From: Methanoculleus sp.
GTDB taxonomy: Archaea > Halobacteriota > Methanomicrobia > Methanomicrobiales > Methanoculleaceae
Direction of reading: 5' to 3'
NCBI RefSeq assembly: GCF_020696975.1
Contig: NZ_JAJGBK010000032.1
Coordinates: 62,001 to 126,000, forward strand
Length of the DNA stretch: 64,000 bases
The position numbers and the translations under genes are program-made. Shown piece by piece: positions 15,410-30,248 of the stretch. How positions within the stretch are numbered: position 1 is the stretch's first letter; every line of letters begins with the position of its first letter. Under the pieces are notes generated by a model. It was not told the origin of the DNA and did no database searches. It saw nothing but the letters and a program-made list of their open reading frames with translations.

Positions 15410-15619
15410 ATGGAACGGCGCCAGAACACGGAATGGATCGGGATACGGCAACGCCGGGTCATCGATGAGAACGATTACTATGCCGACCGGCTCTATGAGA
15501 GCCAGCGGGCTGCAACCGCCCACGCCCGGCAGCTGGAGCGCCAGGGAAAGGACGTCCTCGTCCTTCCGGCTACCCGCGAAGGGGGGCACCGGGGCTACGC
15601 CGCCTTCTTCAGGAGATAG
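15410..15619 (+). CDS. Hypothetical small protein
   Basis: 69-aa ORF MERRQNTEWIGIRQRRVIDENDYYADRLYESQRAATAHARQLERQGKDVLVLP. Confidence 0.55.
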   Translation: MERRQNTEWIGIRQRRVIDENDYYADRLYESQRAATAHARQLERQGKDVLVLPATREGGHRGYAAFFRR

Positions 15620-17221: not shown

Positions 17222-18247
17222 ATGATCAAAGTCGCGATCAACGGGTTCGGCACCATCGGCAAACGGGTAGCCGATGCGGTCGCCGCTCAGCCCGATATGG
17301 AAGTTGTAGGGGTCTCAAAGACCAGCGTCTCTGCGGAAGCGTTCATCGCAAAAGAGCGCGGCTACCCCCTCTACATCTCGGATCTCTCAAAGAAGTCGGC
17401 ATTCGAGAAGGTCGGGCTTGAGGTCGCCGGCGACGTCGAGACGATGCTCAAGGCCGCCGACGTCATCATCGACGCCACCCCCGGCGGCGTCGGGGAGAAG
17501 AACCGGCCGATCTACGAGCGCCTCGGCAAGAAGGCCGTCTTCCAGGGCGGCGAGGACCACGAGGTCGCCGGGTTCTCCTTCAATGCCCACGCAAACTACC
17601 GCGAGGCCGAAGGGCACCAGTTCGCCCGGGTCGTCTCCTGCAACTCCACCGGGCTCGTCCGGCTCATCCACGCGATGGACCAGGCATTCGGGGTCGCACG
17701 GGTCCGGGCGGTGATGGTCCGGCGGGCTGCGGACCCCGACGACGTCAAACGGGGGCCGGTGGACGCGATCGTCCTCAACCCGGCGACCATCCCGAGCCAC
17801 CACGGCCCCGACGTCAAGACCGTCCTGCCGCAGATCGATATCGTCACCCTCGCGATGATCGTCCCGACGACGTTTATGCACATGCACAGCATCCAGATGG
17901 ACTTAAAGAAAGAGACCACCCGCGAAGAGGTGCTGAAGGTCTTTGAGAACCACAGCCGGATCGGGCTCGTCCGTAAGGTTACCGGGATCAAGAGCAACGC
18001 CCAGCTCCGGGAGTACACCCAGGACCTCGGCAGGCCGAGGACGGATCTCTGGGAGAACGGGGTCTTTGAGGAGTCGGTCTCGGTCCTGAACGGCAAGGAG
18101 TTCTACTGCTTCCAGGCCATCCACCAGGAGGCCGACGTCGTCCCCGAGAACGTCGACTGCATCCGCGCCCTGATGGGAACCGTCAAGGATCCGGAAGAAT
18201 CCATCCGGATGACCAACGAAGCGCTCAAGCTCGTCGCCATCGGGTGA
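17222..18247 (+). CDS. gap: Archaeal (type II) glyceraldehyde-3-phosphate dehydrogenase
   Basis: MIKVAINGFGTIGKRVADAVAAQPDMEVVGVSKT; catalytic VVSCNSTGLVRL. Confidence 0.95.
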   Translation: MIKVAINGFGTIGKRVADAVAAQPDMEVVGVSKTSVSAEAFIAKERGYPLYISDLSKKSAFEKVGLEVAGDVETMLKAADVIIDATPGGVGEKNRPIYERLGKKAVFQGGEDHEVAGFSFNAHANYREAEGHQFARVVSCNSTGLVRLIHAMDQAFGVARVRAVMVRRAADPDDVKRGPVDAIVLNPATIPSHHGPDVKTVLPQIDIVTLAMIVPTTFMHMHSIQMDLKKETTREEVLKVFENHSRIGLVRKVTGIKSNAQLREYTQDLGRPRTDLWENGVFEESVSVLNGKEFYCFQAIHQEADVVPENVDCIRALMGTVKDPEESIRMTNEALKLVAIG

Positions 18248-18366
18248 ACGGCCAGGACCGGGGGGGAGAGATAATACTCTCCCTCGCAAAACAGTTTTTC
18301 TGAGGGCGGCAACCCTCAAGCACCGGGAGGTCTGGGACTCCCCCACCGCCCGCGCTTCGCGCTCCT

Positions 18367-18388
18367 CCCGCCCCCTTGCGGGGGCGGG
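18367..18388. terminator. Strong GC hairpin CCCGCCCCC-TTGC-GGGGGCGGG
   Basis: Perfect 9-bp stem with 4-nt loop at the left edge of an AT-rich segment. Confidence 0.45.
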
Positions 18389-18430
18389 CAGTGCGTGGCG
18401 ATATCCTCCATCAGGAATTAGTCGCTAGGC

Positions 18431-18751
18431 TCAAGATTTGGGGCATTTGTAGATAAAGGCCATTACAGCAAGGGCCGCTATGATCAGCCCGACCGTAATA
18501 GCAGATCCCATGTCTTGGGCGGTCTGAGTCTCTGACAACAGTGAGATTTTGGCCACCACAAAGAGAGTTACAAAGGCAAAGATTACCTTTACACCAGCTA
18601 AAGTTAGATTTCCAAAGGATGATGTTCCAATACTAGCGTCCGACCTGATGCACAGGAGGGTTAATTGAGAGATAGTATTCCCCGATGAGCGTGGTGAGGA
18701 ATAATCCCATAACATAAAGAAAACCAAAGACCAGTATCGTAGTTGTTTCAA
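18431..18751 (-). CDS. Hypothetical membrane protein (start uncertain, overlaps neighbour)
   Basis: VKVIFAFVTLFVVAKISL and AITVGLIIAALAVMAFIYK hydrophobic segments; overlaps 18633..19280 out of frame. Confidence 0.35.
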   Translation of the reverse strand: MKQLRYWSLVFFMLWDYSSPRSSGNTISQLTLLCIRSDASIGTSSFGNLTLAGVKVIFAFVTLFVVAKISLLSETQTAQDMGSAITVGLIIAALAVMAFIYKCPKS

Positions 18752-19280
18752 TTTCCACTTGATAGCGATAATTCTGACTTACCGTGTACCCTGCTCCAAG
18801 GAGAGCGACGATAATTTGTGCAGTGATGAGTGAAAAGATAAACGAAAGTATTCTTTCACGATGTTGCTCGATAATGTTTCTCCACTCAGTCTGCGGGAAA
18901 TATGATCGAAAACGAATAATACTGGTTTCCGAAGGATTACCATGAATGCGAATGACCAAGAGTGTGGCCATCGTTGTCGAGATAACAAGTAGGGAAGTGA
19001 TGGAATCAAAAGTCACACTTAAGGTTAATAAAATCACGATATACGACACCATCAGAGGAATAGACAGTAGGAAATAAATTGTCGCAACAAATCTAACCTT
19101 CCGTTTCAAACTTTCGTAGTTCTGCCTATGATATATGCCCAATAGTGATATCTGCGCCGATAACCATGGCATAACAAAGTATAGCGTTAAGCCAAAGAAA
19201 ATAATGACTAGACCAGCAATGGCAATTTCAGGGAGTTCGGGATCTGACGGAATCGGCACTTCTGATATATCTAAAGCCAT
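18633..19280 (-). CDS. Hypothetical multi-TM membrane protein
   Basis: 215 aa with ~5 hydrophobic segments; AT-rich DNA; no recognised family. Confidence 0.6.
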   Translation of the reverse strand: MALDISEVPIPSDPELPEIAIAGLVIIFFGLTLYFVMPWLSAQISLLGIYHRQNYESLKRKVRFVATIYFLLSIPLMVSYIVILLTLSVTFDSITSLLVISTTMATLLVIRIHGNPSETSIIRFRSYFPQTEWRNIIEQHRERILSFIFSLITAQIIVALLGAGYTVSQNYRYQVEIETTTILVFGFLYVMGLFLTTLIGEYYLSINPPVHQVGR

Positions 19281-19288
19281 TCTATCGC

Positions 19289-19480
19289 TCAGGATACCAT
19301 TTTGGAATCCAATTTCATTTGCTTATCTTTCCGCCGATTTATGACTATATTAAATATTACAAACAAATACATAAGAGATAGGCCGATAATGATGTAACTC
19401 TGTAACACAGCCCAGACGCTGGCAGTCCCTAAAAGGAGAGAGCCTATAAACTGTATCACCGAAAAAACATTTTGAGGCAT
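19289..19480 (-). CDS. Hypothetical small membrane protein
   Basis: 63 aa with two hydrophobic segments, same strand and AT-rich segment as 18633..19280. Confidence 0.4.
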   Translation of the reverse strand: MPQNVFSVIQFIGSLLLGTASVWAVLQSYIIIGLSLMYLFVIFNIVINRRKDKQMKLDSKMVS

Positions 19481-19879
19481 CCCTTCGCACCCACCTTCCC
19501 GCTCTTACCCTCTCAAAGATACAAACTATCTACAGATATATAAGATCGCCTATATTCAGTGATAAGGGTGCCTGTACCCCATGATTTTACAAGGCTATAA
19601 CCTGAATCTGAAATTCAGACTTCTCTACATCTCTCACAATGCCTGAATTTCCTTTCATAGGCGACAGCGATAGGGGTATCATCTGCACATCCCCTTTCAA
19701 TAAACTGACAGCGAGGTGATTCCGCTTGCGCGCTTCCAGCAGAAAGACAAAAAATTCAAAGAACCGACCATAACCGATTGGATAGAAAATGTACGTAAGC
19801 CCTACTTAAGGAAAATAGAATCGTGTGCATCGACGCTCCCAGAAGAAGCATTAACTCCCCGGCAAACCCACTTCTTTTC

Positions 19880-20827
19880 ATGGATCCGTACGAACTGGTG
19901 ACGAGGAATACCGTAGAGGTCGTCACCGACGAGGAACTGCGCGCGCTCATCGACCGTCCGGTCAAGCGGGTCTACACCGGCTACGAGCCGAGCGGAGAGA
20001 TCCACCTCGGGCACATGGTGACGGTGAACAAGCTGATGGACCTACAGCAGGCAGGGTTCGAGGTGACCGTGCTCATCGCCGATCTCCACGCCTTCTTGAA
20101 CCGCAAGGGCACCATGGAGGAGATCCGGGAGATCGCCGAGTACAACCGCCTCTGCTTTGAGGGGCTCGGCCTCCGGGGCGCAAAGTATGTCCTCGGGTCG
20201 GATGTGCAGCTCACGCCGGAGTACGAACTCTCGGTCCTGAAACTCTCCCAGGCAATCACCCTCAACCGGGCGAAGAGGAGCATGGACGAGGTCGGACGGC
20301 AGATGGAGAACCCGACGGTCTCGCAGATGGTCTATCCGATCATGCAGATGGTCGATATCGCGACACTCGAAGTGGACGCCGCCGTCGGCGGGATCGACCA
20401 GCGAAAGATTCACATGCTCGCACGGGAACACCTCCCCTCGATCGGGTATCCGGCGCCGGTCTGCATCCACACGCCGATCATCAACGGCCTCGACGGGAAG
20501 AAGATGTCGTCCTCGGCCGGAAACGTCATATCGGTCGCCGACTCCGAAGAGGATATCAAACAGAAGATGAAGAAGGCGTTCTGCCCGCCCGAGGTAGAAA
20601 ACAACCCGGTGCTCGAGATCCTGCACTACCACGTCTTCCCCCGGACCGGGACGGTCACCATCCGCCGGCCCGCGAAGTTCGGCGGGGACCGGGAGTTTGC
20701 GACCTACGAGGACCTCGAGCGGGCTTACGCCGCCGGCGAGGTCCATCCCCTGGACCTGAAGACGGCCGCCGCCGCCCACCTCATCGATATCCTCGCCCCC
20801 GTACACGACTACGTCTGCAGCAGGTGA
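19880..20827 (+). CDS. tyrS: Tyrosyl-tRNA synthetase
   Basis: YTGYEPSGEIHLGHMVTVNKLMDLQQAGFEV (HIGH-like HLGH) and GKKMSSSAGNVI (KMSKS-like). Confidence 0.95.
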   Translation: MDPYELVTRNTVEVVTDEELRALIDRPVKRVYTGYEPSGEIHLGHMVTVNKLMDLQQAGFEVTVLIADLHAFLNRKGTMEEIREIAEYNRLCFEGLGLRGAKYVLGSDVQLTPEYELSVLKLSQAITLNRAKRSMDEVGRQMENPTVSQMVYPIMQMVDIATLEVDAAVGGIDQRKIHMLAREHLPSIGYPAPVCIHTPIINGLDGKKMSSSAGNVISVADSEEDIKQKMKKAFCPPEVENNPVLEILHYHVFPRTGTVTIRRPAKFGGDREFATYEDLERAYAAGEVHPLDLKTAAAAHLIDILAPVHDYVCSR

Positions 20828-22176: not shown

Positions 22177-22235
22177 TGCGGCCGGGGCCATGCGACCCCG
22201 CCCATGGCCATAACAATACGTGCAGTCTGCAGTCT

Positions 22236-22254
22236 GCAGTGGAAACGAAGGGGT
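22236..22254 (+). promoter_or_regulatory. ORB-like element a (mini-ORB) immediately upstream of hel308
   Basis: GCAGTGGAAACGAAGGGGT matches the archaeal mini-ORB TGGAAACnAAGGGGT core; preceded by TGCAGTC x2. Confidence 0.55.
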
Positions 22255-22258
22255 ATAC

Positions 22259-25479: not shown

Positions 25480-25500
25480 AACCCCTTTGTTTCGACTGGA
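25480..25500 (-). promoter_or_regulatory. ORB element b (left arm of origin)
   Basis: AACCCCTTTGTTTCGACTGGA = reverse complement of TCCAGTCGAAACAAAGGGGTT. Confidence 0.75.
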
Positions 25501-25650
25501 GAGTCAGGGGGGCCCCGGGGGTCGAGGGGGTGGTTGAGGGGGGAGGGGAGGGGAGAGATCCCGGGTTCTTCGGCGGTTAATAGGGTTTATCGTAGTTTTG
25601 CGTAGAGATTCCCGTAAACCGGAGGGGCCAGTCCGGCGGGGGAGGAGAGA

Positions 25651-25850
25651 GGGAGCCGCGGGTTGTTAGTGAGGATCCGGGATGGGAGAGAGGGAGCCGC
25701 GGGTTGTTAGTGAGGATCCGGGATGGGAGAGAGCCGGGATCCCGAGATGACGTTGTGGGTTGTTGATAAAGATCCGGGATGGGAGAGAGCCGGGATCCCG
25801 AGATGACGTTGTGGGTTGTTGATGAGGATCCGGGGTAGGAGAGAACCGTG
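25651..25850. repeat. Degenerate tandem repeats in origin region
   Basis: GGGAGCCGCGGGTTGTTAGTGAGGATCCGGGATGGGAGAGA twice at 41-bp period (25651, 25692), then GAGCCGGGATCCCGAGATGACGTTGTGGGTTGTTGAT twice at 56-bp period (25731, 25787). Confidence 0.85.
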
Positions 25851-26372
25851 ACCGGGGAATGTCGATGAGGATCTGGGGGTGGGAAGATAAGCACTGGAGG
25901 CTACCGATGAGGAGCCGGGCGGGAAGAGGAGGAGCATTCGAGGTTGTCAGTGAGGAGCCAGGGAGGAGGGAGTTCAACCCGATAGCGGTTTGATCGTCCC
26001 CTGACTCTGATTGATCCAGGATCCTTTCGCACCGTTCCCGGGTTTCCTCTTTATTTCCAGCTTTGTATCTTCCTGTTCCTGGTTCTCGTCTCACTACTTT
26101 GGGTTTCTCTTGCCCCCTGCTTCCCGTTCTCCTCTCCTGACTTCCAGCTTCTCGTGCTCCCGGACCTTTTCTCTCTGTCCCTGGTTCTCCTCTTACTGTT
26201 TCAGGTTTTCTCTTTCTGCGCTATTCCTTTTTGTTGTTCCAGTCCTTTTTCCCTGTATTTTTTTTCTTCTCTTCATTTTTTGCTCTTCTTCTTGTACTCT
26301 GTACTGTACCGGTAAAACTTTATATCTTGAGTTTCAGAGGTACACATGACTATCATCATCACTTTTGATTGT

Positions 26373-26394
26373 ATGATACAACCTGGTGTATCAT
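26373..26394. repeat. Inverted repeat ATGATACA-N6-TGTATCAT beside ORB c
   Basis: Perfect 8-bp arms; TATCATCATCAC also occurs as a direct repeat at 26351-26362 and 26389-26400. Confidence 0.7.
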
Positions 26395-26401
26395 CATCAC
26401 G

Positions 26402-26422
26402 TTCCAGTCGAAACAAAGGGGT
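26402..26422 (+). promoter_or_regulatory. ORB element c
   Basis: TTCCAGTCGAAACAAAGGGGT; its 20-bp core TCCAGTCGAAACAAAGGGGT is an exact inverted match to ORB b. Confidence 0.75.
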
Positions 26423-26520
26423 CGGGGCGATCCCGGGATCCCTCCTCCCGGACATCTCCCGGTATCATCCTCCTCACCCGGAGTTCGCCGGGATTCTCCT
26501 GCCAGCCCCTCCCTTTCGAG

Positions 26521-26542
26521 TTCCACTGGAAACGAAGGGGTT
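26521..26542 (+). promoter_or_regulatory. ORB element d
   Basis: TTCCACTGGAAACGAAGGGGTT, ~78 bp upstream of the orc1/cdc6 start. Confidence 0.8.
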
Positions 26543-26619: not shown

Positions 26620-27903
26620 ATGTCGGACGATAAGACTAATCCAATGGGACTATTCAAAAAATACCTGACCAATAGACGTATATTTAAGAACAGGGAGGTT
26701 CTGCGCCACAGCTATCGTCCTCACATTCTTCCTCACCGGAAACCGCAGATCGACGAGCTCGCCTCTATCCTTGCCCCTGCCCTCACGAACGAGACCCCGT
26801 CAAACATCCTCATCTACGGCAAGACCGGGACCGGGAAGACGGCAACGGTCCGGTACGTGGGGACCGAGCTTGAGAACGCAAGCGCCCTTGCCGGGACGAA
26901 GTGCAAGATCGTCCACCTCAACTGCGAGGTGATCGATACCCAGTACCGTGTCCTCGCCCAGATCGCAAACTGCCTCGACGACGCCGACGAGCACCCGAGC
27001 GACAGTACCCGAAGCCACATCCCGATGACCGGGTGGCCGACCGACCAGGTCTACATGGAGCTCAAGAACCAGCTCGAGAGCAACGGCGGGGTGATGGTCA
27101 TCATCCTCGACGAGATCGACAAACTCGTCAAGAAGAGCGGCGACGACACCCTCTATAACCTCACCCGGATCAACTCCGACCTCAAGTTCGCGAAGGTCAG
27201 CATCATCGGGATCTCAAACGACCTCCGGTTCACCGACTTCCTGGACCCCCGGGTCCTCTCCTCCCTCTCCGAGGAGGAGATCGTCTTTCCCCCCTACAAC
27301 GCCCCGCAGCTCTGCGACATTCTCCAGCAGCGCGCCGAGATGGCCTTCGTCGAGGGGGCGCTCGACGAGACGGTCATCCCGCTCTGTGCGGCGCTCGCGG
27401 CCCAGGAGCACGGCGACGCCCGGCGGGCGCTCGACCTCCTCCGGGTCTCGGGGGAACTTGCGGACCGCGAGAACGCCGCCGGCGTGAGGGAGAAGCATGT
27501 CCGGATGGCCCAGGAGAAGATCGAGACCGACAGCATGGTGGAGTGCGTCTCCACCCTCCCGACCCAGAGCAAGGCGGTCCTCTACGCCATGCTGATCCTC
27601 GAGCAGATGGGCAAACGGATCTTCACGAGCGGGGAGGTCACGGTGGTCTACCGGGAGATCGCGCGGATCATCGATCTCGACGTCCTGACGCACCGCCGGA
27701 TCACGGACCTCATCTCCGAACTCAACATGCTCGGGGTCATCAACACCCGGGTCGTCTCCCGCGGCCGCTACGGCCGGACGAAGGAGATGTGGTTCGATGC
27801 AACGACAAGCAAGATCGAGGAGGTCGTCACGCGCGACCCGAGGCTGGATGACCAGAGGCTCAAAGACCTCGATATCAACCGTTTAAGAGCAATGTTCAGG
27901 TGA
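26620..27903 (+). CDS. orc1/cdc6: Orc1/Cdc6 replication initiator
   Basis: ILIYGKTGTGKTATVRYVG Walker A; VIILDEIDKLV Walker B; SLSEEEIVFPPYNAPQLCDILQQRAEMAF; winged-helix C-terminus. Confidence 0.95.
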   Translation: MSDDKTNPMGLFKKYLTNRRIFKNREVLRHSYRPHILPHRKPQIDELASILAPALTNETPSNILIYGKTGTGKTATVRYVGTELENASALAGTKCKIVHLNCEVIDTQYRVLAQIANCLDDADEHPSDSTRSHIPMTGWPTDQVYMELKNQLESNGGVMVIILDEIDKLVKKSGDDTLYNLTRINSDLKFAKVSIIGISNDLRFTDFLDPRVLSSLSEEEIVFPPYNAPQLCDILQQRAEMAFVEGALDETVIPLCAALAAQEHGDARRALDLLRVSGELADRENAAGVREKHVRMAQEKIETDSMVECVSTLPTQSKAVLYAMLILEQMGKRIFTSGEVTVVYREIARIIDLDVLTHRRITDLISELNMLGVINTRVVSRGRYGRTKEMWFDATTSKIEEVVTRDPRLDDQRLKDLDINRLRAMFR

Positions 27904-27907
27904 GACT

Positions 27908-28399
27908 ATGGACGAGAAGGACCGTATCCTCCTCCACCTCCTGGAGGAGAACTGCCGCACTCCGACAAAAGAACTCGCGGTGCTGGCCGAGATGAGTGAA
28001 GAGGATGTAAAGAGCCGGATCGGCCGGCTCGAGGCCGCCGGTGCCATCCGCCGCTACGGAGCGGTCGTCGACTGGGAGCGGGCCGGGGACGGGAACGTCG
28101 CCGCGGTGCTCGAGCTCAAAGTCTCGCCCGAGCGGGACTTCGGCTACGACCGGATCGCCGAGCGGATCGCCCGGTTCCCGCAGGTCCGGTCGCTCCGGCT
28201 GATGACCGGCGCCTACGACCTCCAGATCCTGGTGACCGGGCCGAGCATGCACGAGATCGCCCGGTTCGTCTCCGAGCAGATCGCTCCCATGGACCGGATC
28301 CGCGAGACGGCGACGCATATCATCATGAAGACCTACAAGGAGAACGGCACCACCTTCGCCGAGCGCGAAGAGGTCGAGCGTCTCCCCTACTCGTTCTGA
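27908..28399 (+). CDS. Lrp/AsnC family transcriptional regulator
   Basis: DRILLHLLEENCRTPTKELAVLAEMSEEDVKSRIGRLEAAGAIRRYGAVVD. Confidence 0.9.
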   Translation: MDEKDRILLHLLEENCRTPTKELAVLAEMSEEDVKSRIGRLEAAGAIRRYGAVVDWERAGDGNVAAVLELKVSPERDFGYDRIAERIARFPQVRSLRLMTGAYDLQILVTGPSMHEIARFVSEQIAPMDRIRETATHIIMKTYKENGTTFAEREEVERLPYSF

Positions 28400-28410
28400 G
28401 GTGAGACGCG

Positions 28411-29571
28411 ATGAGGGATTTCATCTCGGCACGAGCCCGGGCCATACCCCCGTCGGGGATCCGGCGGTTCTTCGACATCGCCCAGACGATGGAAGACGTC
28501 ATCTCCCTGGGTGTCGGGGAGCCGGACTTCGTGACCCCCTGGTGCGTCTGCGAGGCCTCGATCTACTCGATCGAGCAGGGGTCGACCGCCTACACATCAA
28601 ACAAGGGGACCCCCCAGCTCCGGGCCGCCATCAGCCGCTACCTCGACACCCACTTCGGGACCCGGTATGACCCCGAGGAGGAGATCATCGTCACCTGCGG
28701 GGTCTCGGAGGCGGCCGATATCGCTATTAGGGCCGTGACGGACCCGGGCGACGAGGTGCTGGTCGCGGAGCCCTGTTACGTCTCCTACACCCCCTGCGTC
28801 TCCCTCGCCGGCGGCGTCCCGGTCACCGTTCCCTGCCGGGCGGAGGACGAGTTCCGGCTGACGCCCGAGGCGCTTGCGGAGAGCATCACGCCAAAGACGA
28901 AGGCGCTCATCGCGAACTTCCCGAACAACCCCACCGGCGGGGTGATGCAGGAGGCGGACTGGCGCGGTATCGCCGACCTCCTCGTCGACCACGACCTCCT
29001 CCTCATCAGCGACGAGGTGTATGGGGAGCTCACCTACGACGGCAACCACTTCTCGCCGGCGAGGCTCCCGGAGCTCTATGAGCGGACGATCACCTTAAAC
29101 GGGTTCTCGAAGGCCTTCGCCATGACCGGGTGGCGGATCGGCTACCTCTGCGCTCCGCCGGCGATCACCGCGGCGGCCTTGAAGATCCACCAGTACGTCG
29201 CGCTCTGCGCTCCCGTAATGGGCCAGATTGCGGCGTATGAGGCGCTCCGGATCGGGGAGGCCGAGAAGGACGCCATGGTCCGGGAGTACCGCCTCCGGCG
29301 CAACCTCTTTGTCGACGGGTTAAACAAACTCGGTCTTACGTGCCACGTCCCGAAGGGTGCGTTCTACGCCTTCCCCTCGGTGGCGAGCACCGGCATGACC
29401 GATGTCGAGTTCGCCGAGTCGCTCCTGCGCGAACAGCATGTGGCGGTCGTGCCAGGGAGCGTCCTCGGCCCCTCGGGCGCCGGGCACGTGCGGTGCGCCT
29501 ACGCGGTCTCGCGCGACGATCTCAAGGAGGCACTCGCGCGCATGGCAACCTTTCTGGAGTCAATAAAATAA
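28411..29571 (+). CDS. PLP-dependent class I/II aminotransferase
   Basis: [47 protein letters not shown]. Confidence 0.92.
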   Translation: MRDFISARARAIPPSGIRRFFDIAQTMEDVISLGVGEPDFVTPWCVCEASIYSIEQGSTAYTSNKGTPQLRAAISRYLDTHFGTRYDPEEEIIVTCGVSEAADIAIRAVTDPGDEVLVAEPCYVSYTPCVSLAGGVPVTVPCRAEDEFRLTPEALAESITPKTKALIANFPNNPTGGVMQEADWRGIADLLVDHDLLLISDEVYGELTYDGNHFSPARLPELYERTITLNGFSKAFAMTGWRIGYLCAPPAITAAALKIHQYVALCAPVMGQIAAYEALRIGEAEKDAMVREYRLRRNLFVDGLNKLGLTCHVPKGAFYAFPSVASTGMTDVEFAESLLREQHVAVVPGSVLGPSGAGHVRCAYAVSRDDLKEALARMATFLESIK

Positions 29572-29677
29572 ATTAATCTCCATAATTCTCCGGGAGAGAA
29601 AATCATAACTCTTTTATATGAAACTCATGTCCGGATAACGGTTAATTTGCTGTCCGACAGGTGAACGACGGGTGGAG

Positions 29678-29698
29678 AACCCCTTTATTTCCACTGGA
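29678..29698 (-). promoter_or_regulatory. ORB-like element e
   Basis: AACCCCTTTATTTCCACTGGA = reverse complement of TCCAGTGGAAATAAAGGGGTT. Confidence 0.7.
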
Positions 29699-29894
29699 GA
29701 TGTGGATTTATTCGGGGATCCGGAGAGCCGGGATCGCATCATCCCCATTTCCCGGGTATGCATCCGGTCCAGGAAAATGCCGCCAGATCATCGGGTTCGC
29801 ATCCGCGCTCCGATGAGCCGAATTCGATCACAGATCAGCCTGTCAATCCGGAGAAAACTCCACGCAGCAGCCCTGGATGTATAGAAGATGATTT

Positions 29895-29916
29895 TTCCAG
29901 TGGAAATGAAGGGGTT
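29895..29916 (+). promoter_or_regulatory. ORB-like element f
   Basis: TTCCAGTGGAAATGAAGGGGTT; inverted match to e with one mismatch over 21 bp. Confidence 0.7.
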
Positions 29917-30248
29917 CAGATCCGGTGCCGGCCGGGCGTGGGCGATCGCTCATCCCCGGAAGGTAGATATACCAAGGCCGTTCGCCCTCCCGGACGGCCG
30001 GATCTTCGTCACCTGCGGACTTACGATCCCGCCGGGTGCCCGGCCGGGTCCCAGTGGTCCTGGTGCCGTGCCGTAGCGGGAGTGGCGGTCGCTCTGGAGC
30101 GATCTCTGCTCTGCGGGGGCGGAGCGCGGGCCCGGGGAACAAATATGGGCTGAGATGCCCCGGCTGCTTTTAAACCGGGTGGCCGTTTTCCCGGTATCGG
30201 ATTGTAACGTTTATCACCCAGTATCGCTCCATCCTACATGATAGAACA

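Follow-up and report, generated by a model that had tools for sequence, protein, structure and literature searches.

The window, here the whole 64-kb stretch of DNA that was analysed, contains an orc1/cdc6 gene that is followed, in this order, by the genes for an Lrp/AsnC-type regulator and a PLP-dependent aminotransferase, by two ORBs designated e and f, and then by purA (Table 1). The orc1/cdc6 product is presumed to be the protein that binds e and f; named relatives at about 90-97% Orc1 identity are mostly members of Methanoculleus. Six ORB matches (<=3 mismatches) were found in the window, against 0.03 expected from shuffles, and the entire 2.29-Mb genome holds only seven ORB-like boxes (<=2 mismatches), six of them within 7.7 kb around orc1. 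The seventh is a degenerate copy (C31:5232-5250) located ~3 kb from the second orc gene; several Methanoculleus genomes conserve a solitary ORB a few kb from their second orc/cdc6 gene (L128:7896-7917, with equivalents in L129-L137). The outlying member of the orc1 cluster has similar counterparts ~25-45 bp ahead of hel308 in most Methanomicrobiales loci examined; this box may make hel308 subject to Orc1, or part of it may serve for ribosome binding. Elsewhere in the window, a low-GC stretch (18001-20000; 48% vs about 65% around it) is possibly acquired DNA.

Table 1. Features of the orc1/cdc6 locus, in window coordinates.
Feature	Position	Strand	Description
ORB-like box	22234-22255	+	outlying cluster member, 3 bp before the hel308 start codon
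ORB b	25480-25501	-	left box of the upstream origin core; ORB match
b-c interior	25502-26401		upstream core; includes an AT-rich stretch, the candidate for unwinding (up to 72% AT in 50 bp)
ORB c	26402-26423	+	right box of the upstream origin core; ORB match
ORB d	26521-26542	+	78 bp before the orc1 start; position retained in nearly all f1 loci (Methanoculleus family)
orc1/cdc6	26620-27903	+	NCBIfam NF001625 above cut-off; Cdc6_C winged helix
Lrp/AsnC-type regulator	27908-28399	+	between orc1 and the aminotransferase gene
PLP-dependent aminotransferase	28411-29571	+	stop codon ~106 bp before e
AT-rich stretch	29565-29655		after the operon; conserved T-tract at 29612-29615
Palindrome	29651-29659		TGTCCGACA; within the 11-bp palindrome CTGTCCGACAG at 29650-29660; 18 bp from e
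ORB e	29678-29699	-	AACCCCTTTATTTCCACTGGAG; near-consensus predicted Orc1 box; G-string towards orc1
Inner flank of e	29700-29717		ATGTGGATTTATTCGGGG; conservation 0.91-0.96 over 29698-29715
Central block	29782-29811		centred midway between e and f; conservation 0.83-0.90
Smaller conserved block	29854-29864		genus consensus AAAACTCGATG; conservation 0.84
ORB f	29895-29916	+	TTCCAGTGGAAATGAAGGGGTT; partner of e, with opposite orientation in the Methanoculleus family

ORB matching confirmed that e and f are an inverted pair with one mismatch over 21 bp (two over 22), as an earlier sequence-only reading had stated, and that their G-strings point outward in the same divergent orientation as those of b and c; in the window, the inverted boxes match the consensus of the local origin. 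The pair has an outer span of 239 bp, an interior of 195 bp and a start-to-start distance of 217 bp, and lies ~1.8 kb past orc1, beginning ~106 bp beyond the aminotransferase stop codon. The bracketed 239 bp had been described as non-coding, and this description was upheld: two mechanically called open reading frames overlap the interval (29758-30153 on the forward strand and 29843-30142 on the reverse strand), and both are contradicted by the e-f spacing in relatives (216-220 bp), which shifts by 1-2 bp and not in steps of three. Nor does the interval behave as an RNA element; it has no Rfam match, RNAalifold detected no covariation (term 0.02), and the central base of ORB f is variable (CACTGG/CAGTGG) largely independently of e.

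The position after orc1-lrp-aminotransferase is constant throughout Methanoculleus and its sister genera, and the sister-species comparison that had been set beforehand as a check found the pair strongly conserved: of the 36 loci with both boxes in these genera, 33 have e and f 218 +/- 2 bp apart. In the other three the interval has been altered by a tandem duplication (245 bp), by shortening (195 bp) or by an insertion (1065 bp); the last reflects a transposase-like sequence of ~850 bp between e and f in one species (L049, G008), which retains both boxes. The distance from ORB f to purA is free (226-1433 bp). As judged from the alignment of 29 genus loci, the element is one constrained unit of about 270 bp and not two stray boxes, since per-column conservation is high at e (0.98-0.99), at its inner flank, in the central block and at ORB f (about 0.95), and low (mostly 0.3-0.6) past about 29990. 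The central block is present as a single copy, with no second copy found in the window; it is not a tRNA relic, as ARAGORN recovers only a tRNA-Met at 15452-15530.

Beside e lies a short palindrome, TGTCNGACA, which occurs 12-18 bp from e in relatives. Of 199 genomes of the order, 35 contain the exact palindrome-plus-ORB module (23 Methanoculleus, one sister genus, eight f4, two f2 and one f5; family codes are given below), and the reversed control gave no match; the module occurs once per genome, save for one fragmented assembly with two matches at contig ends. A wide regulon site can be dismissed, as TTGTCNGACA has only a handful of occurrences in the genome, about as many as the reversed control. 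In f3-g10 loci (L078-L080), which lack e, a (+) ORB upstream of orc1 is accompanied by TGTCNGACA ~28 bp beyond its G-string end; since this lineage lacks e yet has the ORB and palindrome upstream of orc1, the pattern suggests that the palindrome-ORB module can move. That the neighbouring Lrp-type regulator might be the palindrome-binding protein is only a guess. The palindrome and the midway central block are new observations of this analysis, and the open-licence literature searched yielded no account of this palindrome, or of ORBs downstream of orc1, for Methanomicrobiales; the genome papers of the order that were checked make no mention of origins or ORBs.

Across the order, 40 further Methanomicrobiales loci were surveyed (families coded f1-f6, with f1 the Methanoculleus family). 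The gene order orc1-lrp-aminotransferase is general among them, and a (-) ORB follows the aminotransferase gene in five of the six sampled families (f1, f2, f3-g11, f4 and f5); it was not found in the sampled loci of f6 (Methanoregulaceae), nor in f3-g10. Within the set of named genera, Methanoculleus and Methanofollis have e, and Methanoregula and Methanolinea lack it. The partner box is more variable: it is inverted in f1 only, and in tandem (~180-280 bp) in most f5 loci and some of f2, whereas f4 and f3-g11 lack it. The window has two downstream ORBs; in the order's other families their number ranges from one to four. The gene after the (-) box also changes among families, and purA is not next in all of them. 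This distribution indicates that the single (-) box e is older than the pair; e is an order-level feature and the inverted e/f arrangement a family-level elaboration, because the (-) box occurs in five of six families and its inverted partner only in f1. The absence of e from the sampled Methanoregulaceae and f3-g10 loci further implies that origins of the order do not depend on e for their function. A general Halobacteriota feature it is not, as 20 loci from other orders had neither a (-) ORB after orc1 nor an orc1-lrp-aminotransferase operon.

The relation of e/f to the chromosomal origin was approached through GC skew in a closed congener (G007), sampled in 40 stretches of 20 kb. The skew minimum falls at the orc1 locus and the maximum opposite, at 1.22-1.28 Mb, a contrast reached by 4 of 3000 permutations; this supports a single bidirectional chromosomal origin at orc1. 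Since the skew of G007 points to one origin there, e/f can be assigned to the oriC locus; the resolution of the skew is coarser than 3 kb, and skew alone therefore does not separate b-d from e-f. Base composition differs between the two pairs: the e-f interior in the window is 46% AT (richest 50 bp, 54%), against 72% for the richest 50 bp of b-c, and among f1 loci 50-bp windows reach 66-82% AT in b-c vs 46-66% in e-f intervals of the usual length. The b-c interior of the window is enlarged by tandem repeats of 41 and 56 bp (25644-25848); several sister genera have a b-c interior of about 170-300 bp, against 900 bp here. Between e and f, a 50-bp window scan found no AT-rich unwinding region, and because its interior lacks such a stretch, unlike the b-c core, e/f is probably not a second origin. 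The AT-rich stretch that the sequence-only reading had noted just left of e was confirmed (60% AT over 110 bp vs 37% locally). It lies outside the pair, has its conserved T-tract directly behind the operon, and is weaker or not consistently AT-rich in several relatives; it is probably the transcription terminator of the operon and not an unwinding element.

In canonical archaeal origins, inverted ORBs lie on either side of an AT-rich region (PMC3936714, PMC12141716). Like the orc1-type cores (Sulfolobus oriC1, haloarchaeal oriC1), e/f has inverted ORBs with polarity at an orc1 locus; unlike them, it lacks an AT-rich unwinding region and is not directly adjacent to orc1/cdc6, as two genes intervene. 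A different precedent is oriC2D of Haloarcula hispanica, where 11 ORBs within 722 bp directly follow cdc6E and serve a secondary origin; oriC2D does not support plasmid replication alone, lowers origin activity, and probably titrates Cdc6E (PMC3936714). Three downstream ORBs are also found in Halorubrum lacusprofundi (PMC3936714). With oriC2D the e/f element shares intergenic ORBs downstream of an initiator gene (genus-wide), no expectation of origin activity of its own, and proposed initiator titration; it differs in having two boxes, set past two genes with fixed spacing and a palindrome, at what is apparently the sole origin. The datA locus of Escherichia coli, named as an analogue of oriC2D (PMC3936714), likewise places initiator sites outside the unwinding region, where they lower free initiator, as is proposed for e/f; its initiator and sequence are unrelated, and e/f lies inside the origin locus.

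The favoured reading, held with about even confidence, is that e/f is an accessory control element of the single chromosomal origin, predicted to bind Orc1 and without an unwinding region of its own; it is based on the oriC2D-like position, the missing unwinding region, the near-consensus boxes and the absence of the element in some lineages. Orc1 from the adjacent gene would bind e and f, probably cooperatively, and would be joined by a second protein on the palindrome; Orc1 held at the locus would be less free to fire the upstream b-c/d core, and re-initiation would be limited. Occupancy, cooperativity and the negative direction of control are all conjectural steps in this scheme. The retention of the (-) box in five of six sampled families despite a changing downstream gene speaks for a control element, as do the clustering of boxes around orc1, an e-f spacing that is fixed beside a free f-purA distance, the skew minimum at orc1 in G007 and the palindrome module; against it stand the two boxes, few compared with the 11 of oriC2D, and the fact that simple titration needs no fixed spacing, central block or palindrome. 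The suggestions of the sequence-only reading that e/f might be part of a composite origin or an Orc1-titrating site both fit the orc1-side position, the genus-wide conservation, the single skew origin, the near-consensus boxes and the oriC2D precedent.

The constant e-f distance, together with the central block and the palindrome, goes beyond simple titration and hints at a defined complex. A more specific proposal can be made tentatively, as a possibility that we consider doubtful on balance: the palindrome TGTCNGACA, ORB e, a spaced partner and the central block may form a dedicated two-protein replication-control switch of Methanomicrobiales that gates oriC firing. In Sulfolobus, the ucm is located within the DUE, between ORBs, and UBP has hundreds of binding sites (PMC12141716); the palindrome resembles ucm as a conserved non-ORB motif in an origin, read by a non-Orc1 protein (for the palindrome only proposed), yet it is found outside the pair and has few copies in the genome.

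The same hints of a defined complex are compatible with a positive architectural role in a composite origin, in which Orc1 on e/f touches Orc1 on c/d across the 3-kb operon or adds a helicase-recruitment site; the G-string of e faces orc1 and is convergent with d. Families without e nevertheless retain the same upstream core, and the insertion sequence between e and f is tolerated, which makes this role rather unlikely. Transcriptional control, with Orc1 at e/f regulating the downstream gene or insulating the orc1 operon from it, would find a parallel in ORB d just upstream of orc1, and in f3-g11 a TATA-like stretch and a start codon come soon after e; neither the identity of the downstream gene nor its distance is constant, however, and such a function seems improbable. 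An accessory origin had also been suggested from the sequence; in such an origin, or in a backup one, Orc1 on the two boxes would unwind DNA between or beside them. The inverted pair with outward G-strings, a spacing that resembles the compact b-c core of many relatives, and the AT-rich stretch left of e are all in its favour. This suggestion is not supported: the e-f interior is less AT-rich than b-c of the same family, other families have the partner box in tandem or not at all, and one species tolerates an insertion between the boxes, leaving an accessory origin quite improbable. Relic boxes from a duplicated origin sequence, now without function, would explain partner boxes that vary in orientation and number between families, and are extremely improbable given near-invariant boxes at fixed spacing amid diverged intergenic DNA.

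The limits that archaea set on re-initiation are largely unknown, and the tested case of control by downstream ORBs that was found comes from a haloarchaeon. The e/f element is conserved, short and present only once, and it is naturally missing from at least one lineage; titration or architectural control is therefore directly testable in methanogens. The palindrome provides a starting point in the search for a second origin-binding protein, and if the two-protein switch is real, the complex of Orc1 and the palindrome-binding protein would represent a previously undescribed class of archaeal origin regulator.
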